From Acidobacteriota bacterium (lineage in GTDB: Bacteria; Acidobacteriota; Thermoanaerobaculia; Multivoradales; Multivoraceae), in the NCBI GenBank assembly GCA_029263415.1, contig JAJCXN010000026.1:186001-250000 (forward strand): 64,000 nucleotides of DNA, written 5' to 3'. Below are positions 53,977 through 57,639 of this stretch, in pieces. Position 1 is the first letter of the stretch, and the number at the start of each line of letters is the position of its first letter. Under the pieces are notes generated by a model, which ran no database searches, was not told the DNA's origin, and was given only the letters and a program-made list of their open reading frames with translations. The translations under genes were made by a program, and so were the position numbers.

Positions 53977-55212
53977 ATGAGCGATAGCAATCAGATGAGC
54001 GCACACAAAAAGGCGGTTCTTGCTTACAGCGGCGGATTGGACACCTCAGTGATCCTGCAGGTGCTCAAGGAGCAGGGCTACGAGGTTGTAGCGTTCATCG
54101 CGAACGTTGGGCAGGATGAAGACTTCGAGAAGCAGGCTGAGCGTGCTCGGATCATTGGTGCTGCCGAGGTGTTCGTCGAGGACCTGTGTCGTGAGTTCGT
54201 TGACGACTTCATCTTCCCGGCAATCGCGGGCAACGCGGTTTACGAGAACCGCTACTTGTTGGGCACCGCGCTTGCTCGTCCGGTGATCGCCCGCAGGCAG
54301 GTGGAGATTGCAGAGCGCGTTGGGGCCACCGCGGTGGCGCATGGTGCTACTGGCAAGGGCAATGATCAGGTACGCTTCGAGCTCGGCTATGCCGGACTCG
54401 GCCCCCATCTCGAGGTGATCGCGCCTTGGAAGGACCCGGAGTTTCTGGCTCGTTTCGCTGGTCGAACGGATCTACTCAACTATGCCGAAGAGCACGGTAT
54501 TCCAATCGAAGCGAGTAGTGAGAAGTCCTACAGCATGGACGAGAACCTGATGCACAAGAGCTATGAGTCGGGCATGCTTGAGGACCCATCGCTCGCCCCC
54601 AAACCTGAAATGTTCGACCTCACCAGGTCGGCAATGGATGCTCCTGATACGCCAGCCCGGCTTGAGATCGAGTTTGTTGATGCGCGGCCAGTCAGGGTCA
54701 AGGATCTGGACAGCGGCGAGGAAGAAACAGACTCGCTTGCCTTGTTCGCCATGGTCAACCGGATCGCGGGTGAGCATGGTGTCGGCCGGATCGACATGGT
54801 TGAGAATCGGTACGTGGGAATCAAGTCACGTGGGGTCTATGAGACTCCTGGCGGCACCTTGCTGCATTTTGCGCTCCGCGATCTCGAGGGCATCACCATG
54901 GATCGTGAGGTGCTGGCGCTGCGTGACACGTTGGCGCCCAAATTCACTCAGTTGATTTACAACGGCTACTGGTTTTCACCCGAGATGGACTTCATCCGAG
55001 CTGCGTTTGACCAGGCCGAGAAGATGGTCACCGGCACCGTCAAAGTGCAGCTGTTCAAGGGGGGACTACAGGCCCTCGGCCGGAAGTCTCCGGTGTCGCT
55101 CTACAACGAGGCCTTGTCCTCAATGGATATTGCTGGAGGATACGAACAAGCGGATGCAGCTGGGTTCATCCGTATCGCGTCGCTCCGCTTACGGGGCGGC
55201 CGCCATGGCTAG
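53977..55212 (+). CDS. argG: Argininosuccinate synthase
   Basis: Joins citrulline and aspartate with ATP in arginine biosynthesis. It has 411 residues, normal length. The ATP loop [12 protein letters not shown] is at 16-27. [17 protein letters not shown] near residue 128, [20 protein letters not shown] near residue 171 and [13 protein letters not shown] near residue 285 are the family signatures. AAAGGCGAGCG lies just before ATG 53977; ATG 53995 is an alternative. No argH or other arg genes are adjacent. The upstream region is long and structured, and a bidirectional terminator follows. Confidence 0.97.
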
Positions 55213-55312
55213 CAACTGACTGTCGGTGAGGCGAAGCGTTGGCGCCGGACCGCGTGGATAGGCTCCAAGCAGAGGGCAAGGGCGATGGGGGGAGTTGGAC
55301 TACAAACGCAGA

Positions 55313-55350
55313 AAAGGCCGCTTGCCCCTGAGTGGGACGAAGCGGCCTTT
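55313..55350. terminator. Bidirectional intrinsic terminator between argG and the redoxin gene
   Basis: AAAGGCCGCTT (55313-55323) pairs perfectly with AAGCGGCCTTT (55340-55350), with a small inner CCC/GGG stem in the loop. A T-rich run (TTTCTTT) follows on the plus strand, and CTTTTC follows on the minus strand. It sits between convergent genes, as expected for a shared terminator. Confidence 0.85.
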
Positions 55351-55395
55351 CTTTGGTTGGGCTTAGACCCAACCGGGCCCCGACTGCGAGAGGCG

Positions 55396-56067
55396 CTAGT
55401 AGATCCTAGCTGCCTCTAACACCAGCTTGCCAGGGATCCGGACCCGGTAGTCCGGGTTCACGTACTGAAACTTGACCTTGCCTTCTTCATCGAGGACAAA
55501 GACGGCGGGTACCGGCAGCAGATGGTGGTCACTGCCCGAGGCCTTCTCCAGATCGATGCCGTATCCTTTGTACTTACTGATGGTGTCAGCAGGTACTTGG
55601 AATGCGATACCAAAGCCTTTGGAGGCCTCCATGTTGGCGTCGGAGATGATCTGGTAACCGATCTCGTGTTTGCTCACCGTTGGCTGTAGGTGCTCCGGGT
55701 TATCCGGGGACAGGGCAATGATTTGGTAGCCGAGGGAGACAATCTCCTCTTCGACTTCGCGCAACTCACCGAGTTGCGTATTGCAGTACGGTCACCATCC
55801 GCCTCGGTAGAAGATCAAGACGCTCTTCTTGCCGAGGACAATGTCGTGGAGGTTGGTCGCGGTGCCGTTTAAGGTGACGACGCTTGCGTTCGGTGCTTGA
55901 CTGCCGATCAGCGCAGGCTGGATCTTCTCGGCAGAGTCCGGCGTATCAGTGCCGGCTGCAAACGCTGCAGGGGCGGCCAGCCCGGTTACGAGAATTGCGA
56001 GACCAAGGAGTCCGGTGCGCAACGCGTTAAGCGGTGCTAGAAGGGATCCGTGGAGCGAGTTGTTCAC
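55396..56067 (-). CDS. Peroxiredoxin-like protein with in-frame UGA: candidate selenoprotein
   Basis: Read through one UGA (55794-55792), the frame gives a 223-residue exported AhpC/TSA-like protein. GTG 56067 with GGAG about eight bases upstream starts a signal peptide (LLGLAILVTGLAAPAAFA, to about 37). VLIFYRGGW-U-PYCNTQLGEL then follows: the UGA is residue 92, where relatives have the peroxidatic cysteine of GGWCPYC, and Cys95 completes a UxxC pair. Downstream sequence continues as the family does (LGYQIIALSPDNPEHL, ISDANMEASKGFGIAF, PVPAVFVLDEEGKVKFQYVNPDY). Both halves are intact and in the same frame, so a simple pseudogene is unlikely. A SECIS-like hairpin follows the UGA. It would reduce peroxides or disulfides in the periplasm. 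Confidence 0.85.
55760..55778 (-). promoter_or_regulatory. Bacterial SECIS-like stem-loop
   Basis: On the coding strand CGCAACTC and GAGTTGCG pair perfectly over eight bases around the loop GGT. The stem starts 13 bases after the UGA, so the loop starts 21 bases after it. The loop is short and begins with G-G-U. Known bacterial SECIS elements lie in coding sequence just after the UGA, with a G near the start of the apical loop about 16-37 bases away, and this fits. Confidence 0.8.
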
Positions 56068-56368
56068 GTGTGTGATCTCCGAATCAAATTGAGCGAGCAG
56101 GTGACTGGCTGATAGGCAGCGCAGTTCTGCTAACAGTTTAACGCACGGTCTCTGCTGTCGAGTTGCTGCCAGGTTCCCCATTGTCAGTTCAATACTGCCA
56201 GGTTCACCATGGCCCGATTTGAGACTACCGATGCTCGACCTACGAAGCCTGAGTGAAATCGGATCTGTTGGCAGCGTCGTGCCGGATCACGGAAACGCGC
56301 GATCGGGGACGCAAGTGTGTGCAGGATGGGCGCCCCTCGCGAATCAAAATGAGCATAGGATTCCACGT

Positions 56369-56814: not shown

Positions 56815-57639
56815 ATGACAAGCCCTGATCCAGTCGCCCCGAGTTCCGTCCTGCGCAGCCGAGTGCAAGACGGCGTTCTGAGATTGACTCTTTGTCGTCC
56901 AGAACGCCGCAATGCGCTATCGAGCGCCGCCATGCGTGAGCTTTTGTCAGCGATCGAAGAAGCGGACGCCGACGAAACGATTGGTTGCGTGGTGCTCGAC
57001 GCACAAGGCCCAGTGTTCTCCGCGGGTCACGACCTCAAAGAGCTGATCGCGCTGCGCGGCACCGCAGCCGGCGATAGCGAGATTGCAGCTAACTGTAGCG
57101 AGGTGTTTGAGCTGTGCGCGCAGCTGATGACCGCCATTGTCCGGTCAGGCACACCGACCATCGCAGCTGTCCACGGGCTTGCGACTGCGGCCGGCTGTCA
57201 GTTGGTGGCGAGCTGTGATCTCGCCGTAGCTGCCGATAACGCTGCCTTCGCAACACCGGGCGTCGACATCGGTCTGTTTTGCTCGACGCCGTCGGTGGCG
57301 CTGAGTCGCAACGTGTCGCGCAAGGCAGCAATGGAGATGCTGTTGTTGGGTAGTCGCGTGCCAGCTGATCGAGCTCTTGAACTGGGCTTGGTCAACCGAG
57401 TGGTGCCCACTGAGCAGGTCGACGATGTCGTGCTCGAGATGGCAACCACTATCGCCAGTAAGCCGCGCTCGACGGTGGCCAAAGGCAAAGCTGATTTCTA
57501 TCGACAGCTGGAATCGGGTCTCGAAGCGGCATACGTCGACATGGCGCGCGCCATGGCCGAGGGACTGCTGAGTGAGGATGCCGACGAGGGGATCGGGGCA
57601 TTTGTCGAGAAACGGAAGCCTCAGTGGAATGCCAGGTGA
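56815..57639 (+). CDS. Crotonase (enoyl-CoA hydratase/isomerase) homologue, ECHDC3-like
   Basis: A 274-residue crotonase-fold protein. RPERRNALS (28-36) and FSAGHDLKEL (68-77) are the CoA and oxyanion-hole motifs. The later AFATPGVDIGLFCSTPSVALSRNVSRK pattern matches ECHDC3-type members. The two glutamates that do hydration in classic crotonase are replaced by Gln129 (AAGCQLVASCD) and Gly149 (ATPGVDIG), so ordinary hydratase activity is doubtful. The PBP gene overlaps its end. Its true reaction is unknown. Confidence 0.85.
   Translation: MTSPDPVAPSSVLRSRVQDGVLRLTLCRPERRNALSSAAMRELLSAIEEADADETIGCVVLDAQGPVFSAGHDLKELIALRGTAAGDSEIAANCSEVFELCAQLMTAIVRSGTPTIAAVHGLATAAGCQLVASCDLAVAADNAAFATPGVDIGLFCSTPSVALSRNVSRKAAMEMLLLGSRVPADRALELGLVNRVVPTEQVDDVVLEMATTIASKPRSTVAKGKADFYRQLESGLEAAYVDMARAMAEGLLSEDADEGIGAFVEKRKPQWNAR

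Follow-up and report, generated by a model that had tools for sequence, protein, structure and literature searches.

An in-frame UGA in a peroxiredoxin-like gene of an Acidobacteriota bacterium very probably encodes selenocysteine

Does a UGA in the middle of a peroxiredoxin-like (Prx-like) gene end the protein, or is it read as selenocysteine (Sec)? In the window, the whole 64,000-nucleotide stretch of DNA analysed here, a minus-strand frame opens with GTG at 56067–56065 and runs for 223 codons with one in-frame UGA, before closing with TAG at 55396 (Table 1). Genetic code table 11 yields two separate ORFs at 55396–56067, and it is plausible that standard annotation would cut the gene into two truncated genes. 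A first-pass annotation of this DNA had joined the two same-frame segments across the single UGA (55794–55792) at the motif GGW-U-PYC, and had proposed a selenoprotein with a UxxC site and a bacterial SECIS element. The join was confirmed, and the proposal is supported by the Sec machinery, conservation and covariation described below. We conclude with high confidence that the product is a thiol-redox selenoprotein of the Prx-like type, probably exported, in which UGA would be read as Sec92 via SelB and a SECIS hairpin.

Table 1. Coordinates of features at the Prx-like locus, and further genes with an in-frame TGA in the same genome (contig in brackets).
Feature	Position	Strand	Basis or remark
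Prx-like (AhpC/TSA) gene, probable selenoprotein	55396..56067	minus	223 residues, GTG start, TAG stop
In-frame UGA (codon 92), putative selenocysteine 92	55792..55794	minus	translation and comparative reading of the codon
Cys95 codon, UxxC partner of Sec92	55783..55785	minus	read from sequence and translation
Putative bacterial SECIS hairpin, 8 bp, loop GGU (55770–55768)	55760..55778	minus	hairpin scoring, covariation, published model constraints
GGAG, ribosome-binding-site-like, 9 nt before GTG	56077..56080	minus	putative, by eye from sequence
Signal-peptide-like N-terminus, hydrophobic stretch ending AAFA-A	55957..56067	minus	putative, by eye from translation
Strong hairpin then UUUUCU, terminator-like, 3' of stop	55312..55351	minus	z −6.54, 0/200 shuffles
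Redoxin-type TGA genes L180 (C48), L181 (C36), L182 (C15), L183 (C39), L184 (C46), L185 (C51), L186 (C29)			one in-frame TGA each
Rdx/SelW-like gene L187 (C37), CGAU			in-frame TGA, hairpin score ≥6
Formate-dehydrogenase-like gene L188 (C56)			in-frame TGA, below family cut-off, hairpin score ≥6
AhpD/CMD-type genes L190, L191, L192 (CxxU)			in-frame TGA, hairpin score ≥6 each

Read through the UGA, the product matched the Pfam family AhpC-TSA (PF00578, 3.2e-26) with UPYC as its UxxC site, U taking the first position of what would be a CxxC. Of the 124 loci compared in this study 43 were listed for alignment, and 42 of these (the overlong L032 was left out) were aligned together with the Prx-like gene of the window; the Cys95 column was invariant in the 43 rows. 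A structure model built from these 43 sequences had a mean pLDDT of 89.7, with low confidence confined to about 40 N-terminal residues, where the signal-peptide-like stretch lies. The predicted structure is a peroxiredoxin fold (against 3hjp, Z 21.9 and rmsd 2.0 over 155 residues), with a best Foldseek hit of E 8.4e-13. Downstream, the terminator-like hairpin sits between the Prx-like gene and a convergent argG. Pattern scans for promoters and terminators gave no result, so that this hairpin too was missed by them.

The first-pass annotation held that its proposal would fall if the Sec machinery were absent, and selA, selB, selC and selD were all found in the genome (6.89 Mb, 99.2% complete). 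In a genome profile search selA (457.7 bits) and selB (329 bits) scored above their curated cut-offs, as did selD, whose two stretches within a single 833-residue frame totalled 249.2 bits. The tRNA-Sec model reached 71.1 bits against a gathering score of 47, but also passed that score on a tRNA-Ser of the same genome (49.3 bits), hence this point rests on the 71.1 bits together with the ARAGORN call of a tRNA-SeC with anticodon TCA (UCA in RNA). In a control set of 14 known genomes, matches above the cut-off were detected for selB (n = 2), selA (n = 1), selD (n = 2) and tRNA-Sec (n = 5), and weaker matches for selB, selD and tRNA-Sec in all 14. SelB itself was without discriminating value, as it scored above the cut-off in 91 of 98 relatives, among them one with the Cys version of the gene (G084). 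The position of selD within an 833-residue open frame (G000:C23:163515-164576) suggests a fusion such as Ndh-SelD, a type mentioned in PMC2398784.

Comparison with Cys homologues, as the first-pass annotation had proposed, paired the in-frame UGA with Cys: across the 124 loci the codon was TGA in 36 and Cys in 88 (54 TGC, 34 TGT). A search of 98 relatives at E 1e-20 or better returned 30 matches in 29 genomes, 28 with TGA and two with Cys. Within the gene's own family the TGA version was present in 23 of 24 genomes, the window's genome included, although 21 of these 23 belong to one genus and are therefore not independent. UGA at the same codon was also seen in more distant lineages outside the family. 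Phylum-wide, with at most seven candidates scored per genome, 39 of 396 genomes gave 41 matches at 1e-25; 25 of these matches had one TGA inside, and in all 23 that were fetched it fell at the same codon. Among named relatives in the genome collection the main match carried Cys in 80 of 80, a figure which overstates Cys because the query had Cys for Sec and one pattern used was WCPYCNTQ, with the nearest records possibly missing. The searches of 98 and 396 genomes read through stops and are without the same form of Cys bias; their query also had C for U.

Sequence 3' of the UGA still behaved like coding sequence, varying most at third codon positions in six of the seven pairs compared, the exception (L136–L139) varying most at first positions. 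In a 122-row tree (34 Sec and 88 Cys, two identical proteins of the 124 loci being left out), Sec and Cys versions were interleaved, with nine Sec/Cys changes on the drawn tree and at least two required by well-supported branches; large parts of the backbone were unresolved and the bootstrap was unsettled. One same-phylum Cys row (L142) fell with Acidobacteriota in this tree, no more than a hint as to taxon. Adjoining a Cys Prx-like gene, a Planctomycetaceae contig (L044:3292-3717) held a further redoxin-like match whose TGA stands at the corresponding place (T-U-PVC).

Beyond the codon, the sequence confirmed the hairpin geometry first noted: 13 bases separate the UGA from a perfect 8-bp stem (CGCAACTC-GGU-GAGUUGCG, 55778–55760), and the GGU loop begins 21 bases after the UGA. 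The SECIS model quoted in PMC13188914 has an apical loop of 3–9 nt, an upper stem of 4–16 bp, a G within the first two loop nucleotides, a spacing of 16–37 nt and a minimum free energy of at most −7.5 kcal/mol. Each of these limits accommodates the hairpin (3 nt, 8 bp, GGU, 21 nt and −13 kcal/mol for a 51-nt stretch). We scored hairpins by a subset of that model (loop 3–8 nt, G within the first two loop nucleotides, 16–28 nt from codon to G) with a threshold of 6. The window contains 311 TGAs preceded by 20 or more open codons and followed by 40 or more, seven of which have a hairpin scoring ≥6; that of the Prx-like gene was the highest at 8, the others reaching at most 7, which points beyond chance. 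Two of the six others (21650+ and 22316+) likewise carry Cys at the third residue after the TGA, and their read-through products matched no Pfam family. Of 208 codon positions tested along the gene, four reached 6, all at codons 90–93 and all from the same hairpin.

Because the peptide QLGQL favours a palindrome, synonymous recoding of the same peptide was used as the null (2000 recodings per sequence, with codon usage from five window ORFs for all rows). The sequence of the Prx-like gene alone gave p = 0.027, making the single-sequence SECIS case modest and the comparative evidence the strong part. The plain fold of the 51-nt stretch was unremarkable alone (z −0.69, 44 of 200 shuffles folding as well), and an Rfam search of 55200–56200 up to E 10 returned three matches, all below the gathering score and none a SECIS.

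For the comparison, UGA sequences identical to another over the 48-nt stretch compared (15 of 36) were counted once. A score of ≥6 was reached by 20 of the 21 distinct UGA sequences vs 3 of 88 Cys sequences (Mann–Whitney p 7e-12, merely indicative as the rows are related). Mean scores were 6.93 for UGA sequences vs a null of 3.87, and 2.69 for Cys sequences vs a null of 2.82. Recoding p values below 0.05 were obtained for 3 of 88 Cys sequences and for only 14 of 21 UGA sequences, as QLGQL itself favours the stem; of 16 Cys rows listed as encoding a similar peptide ([QH]Lx[QEK]L) none reached 6, the highest being 5.5 (L039). At codons other than the UGA, the threshold was reached by 292 of 4680 positions across the 36 UGA genes, a set that includes near-copies. 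The stem also covaries: across 18 aligned UGA sequences (the 21 without L129–L131, whose stem is shifted), five of the eight pairs change on both sides and three are invariant, the covariation score being 0.301 vs a shuffled mean of 0.150 (0/500 shuffles as high) and slid controls of 0.031–0.131. Pairing cells made up 88.2% vs 79.4% after shuffling, with the outermost pair unpaired in 13 of the 18 rows and paired in five. The three sequences set apart form a divergent HWUPYC group (L129, L130, L131) from another family of the order, with the stem shifted by 2 nt and the loop UGGAU.

If the UGA instead marked a genuine stop, or arose through a sequencing error, the 3' ORF would be a decaying pseudogene, and two separate ORFs are what table 11 gives. 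Such a frame would not be expected to stay conserved across independent assemblies, however, nor to show third-position bias 3' of the UGA in six of seven pairs; the UGA is shared by 23 of 24 genomes of the family, occurs in other lineages as well and is linked to a covarying hairpin, all of which makes this reading very improbable. A variant code, in which UGA would mean Trp or another residue throughout the organism, we regard as having next to no probability. No point in its favour was found, and it is at odds with the 88 loci lacking TGA, all of which have Cys and none Trp, with the UCA-anticodon tRNA-Sec, with the link of the hairpin to UGA versions, and with the one of seven neighbouring genes looked at that ends in TGA (enoyl-CoA hydratase-like, 56815–57639). 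Taken together, the machinery, the recurrence of UGA, the Sec/Cys codons, the UGA-linked hairpin and its covariation indicate that the gene is very probably a real selenoprotein, and the Sec decoding half of our explanation is strongly supported on these genomic grounds. SelB, bound to the hairpin at nt 14–32 after the UGA, would supply the ribosome with Sec-tRNA(UCA) for decoding the UGA as Sec92, as comparative sequence evidence suggests.

The catalytic roles first assigned, with U replacing the peroxidatic Cys and Cys95 resolving, were not supported as stated. In alignments with structurally solved peroxiredoxins of the Bcp type, Ser (2cx3) or Thr (2ywn/4g2e) stands in the column of Sec, and Cys95 aligns with their Cys, which in Bcp is the peroxidatic residue. 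The classical peroxiredoxin motif PxxxTxxC has Thr/Ser three residues before the peroxidatic Cys, and here Sec occupies that Thr/Ser column. Given Sec on Ser/Thr and Cys95 on the Bcp Cys, peroxidatic and resolving roles do not follow from homology, although chemically U may be peroxidatic and C95 resolving. By alignment to ResA (4nmu), where both CxxC cysteines match Sec92 and Cys95, Sec is at the thioredoxin-type first position.

This alignment favours a reading in which Sec decoding is real and the protein is a ResA/DsbE-like thiol:disulfide oxidoreductase, not a peroxidase, to which we give slightly less than an even chance. NCBIfam ResA and DsbE models also match, below cut-off, and PMC13188914 names PF00578 UxxC selenoproteins Prx-like thiol:disulfide oxidoreductases. 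Against it, peroxiredoxins make up most of the nearest solved structures (3hjp, Z 21.9), though a shared fold does not show function, and the first ResA-type chain (4nmu_D) came fifth in Foldseek, by a small gap (E 1.6e-11 vs 8.4e-13). ResA was absent among the 50 rows of the structure comparison topped by 3hjp, which is meaningless by itself. We consider it unlikely that the gene represents a distinct exported subfamily of Sec/Cys dual-nucleophile peroxiredoxins, in a lineage with many Trx-fold selenoproteins, where Sec would replace the peroxiredoxin Thr/Ser, the classical Cys would be kept (UxxC) and either residue could react with peroxide. In our main reading, that of a Prx-like thiol-redox selenoprotein, the Sec92 selenolate, lying just before helix 93–111, would most likely attack a peroxide or disulfide; the selenenylsulfide that it then forms with Cys95 would be reduced by a partner of thioredoxin type.

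The gene neighbourhood named no partner: across the window and 11 of 14 fetched regions (L148, L158 and L159 were left out), no cluster but the Prx-like gene itself was shared by three or more of the 12 stretches, a count in which some genes were missed or split because the ORF caller cuts at UGA. In viral contigs, 10 stretches matched a pattern and none was a relative.

Searches of five families in the window's genome detected no fewer than 12 other redox genes that carry an in-frame TGA (Table 1; L189 was left out). AhpC-TSA gave 25 matches, seven of them further genes with one TGA, and AhpD/CMD-type proteins four matches, three with TGA; none of the 13 thioredoxin (PF00085) matches had one. 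Among the redoxin-type genes L186 is glutathione-peroxidase-like, L185 is AhpC-TSA_2 with GUIFC, and L180 is fused to a DsbD_N-type domain. The TGA contexts, including WUPPC, WUPYC, WUGC, GUIFC, CGAU, CPFU and CHYU, are presumably redox positions, judged by eye and unaligned. Hairpins scored ≥6 in 9 of the 12 genes, including four of the seven redoxin-type genes, with those on C48 (3.0), C46 (5.5) and C51 (4.0) below. Eight of the 12, read through, were assigned by Pfam to GSHPx (n = 1, 4.2e-37), AhpC-TSA_2 (n = 1), AhpC-TSA (n = 5, one being the DsbD_N-type fusion and three with weak TPR matches) and Rdx (n = 1). Together with the Prx-like gene this makes 13 candidates, a lower bound for the genome, and at least these 13 would be expected to be cut at UGA by standard annotation. 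The number is well below the 57 and 63 of the largest selenoproteomes (PMC9312934, PMC13188914).

The locus adds a clear clade-wide Sec/Cys case with SECIS covariation, and corrects the alignment position of Sec to the Bcp Ser/Thr column. The interleaving of Sec and Cys versions in the tree could make the family usable for studies of Sec/Cys exchange.

Prx-like selenoproteins with UxxC (PF00578) have been described since 2005, and our gene adds another member of this described kind. PMC1088965 reported 22 selenoprotein sequences from the Sargasso Sea as a Prx-like family (UXXC in 21, UXC in one), PMC2398784 lists 225 selenoproteins of Prx-like 1 (pfam00578, UxxC), PMC5029168 counts the same family, and PMC9312934 and PMC13188914 also cover this kind. 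Prx-like 1 or Prx-like thiol:disulfide oxidoreductase selenoproteins likewise combine AhpC-TSA with UxxC and commonly have Cys homologues (PMC1088965, PMC2398784, PMC13188914); the likeness of Prx-like 1 to the gene here (GGWUPYCNTQLG, probably exported) is drawn from family and motif descriptions. A text search of the literature, with figures outside it, found no match to the gene's motif strings, from which we make no claim that it is unpublished. The best NCBIfam match was the SelL-related NF040769, at 49.7 bits far below its curated cut-off of 120, which places the gene outside that family. The SelL motif is UxxU, whereas the gene here has UxxC. PrxU (NF040737), a selenocysteine peroxiredoxin, shares the AhpC-TSA family and matched weakly (22.3 bits vs a cut-off of 270). 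Sec-containing Prx carries Sec at the second position (TXXU, PMC1088965), unlike the first-position Sec of the UXXC Prx-like family and of our gene. With peroxiredoxin Q/Bcp (2cx3, 2ywn/4g2e, 3hjp) the gene product shares its predicted fold, but those proteins have Ser or Thr where the putative Sec stands here.
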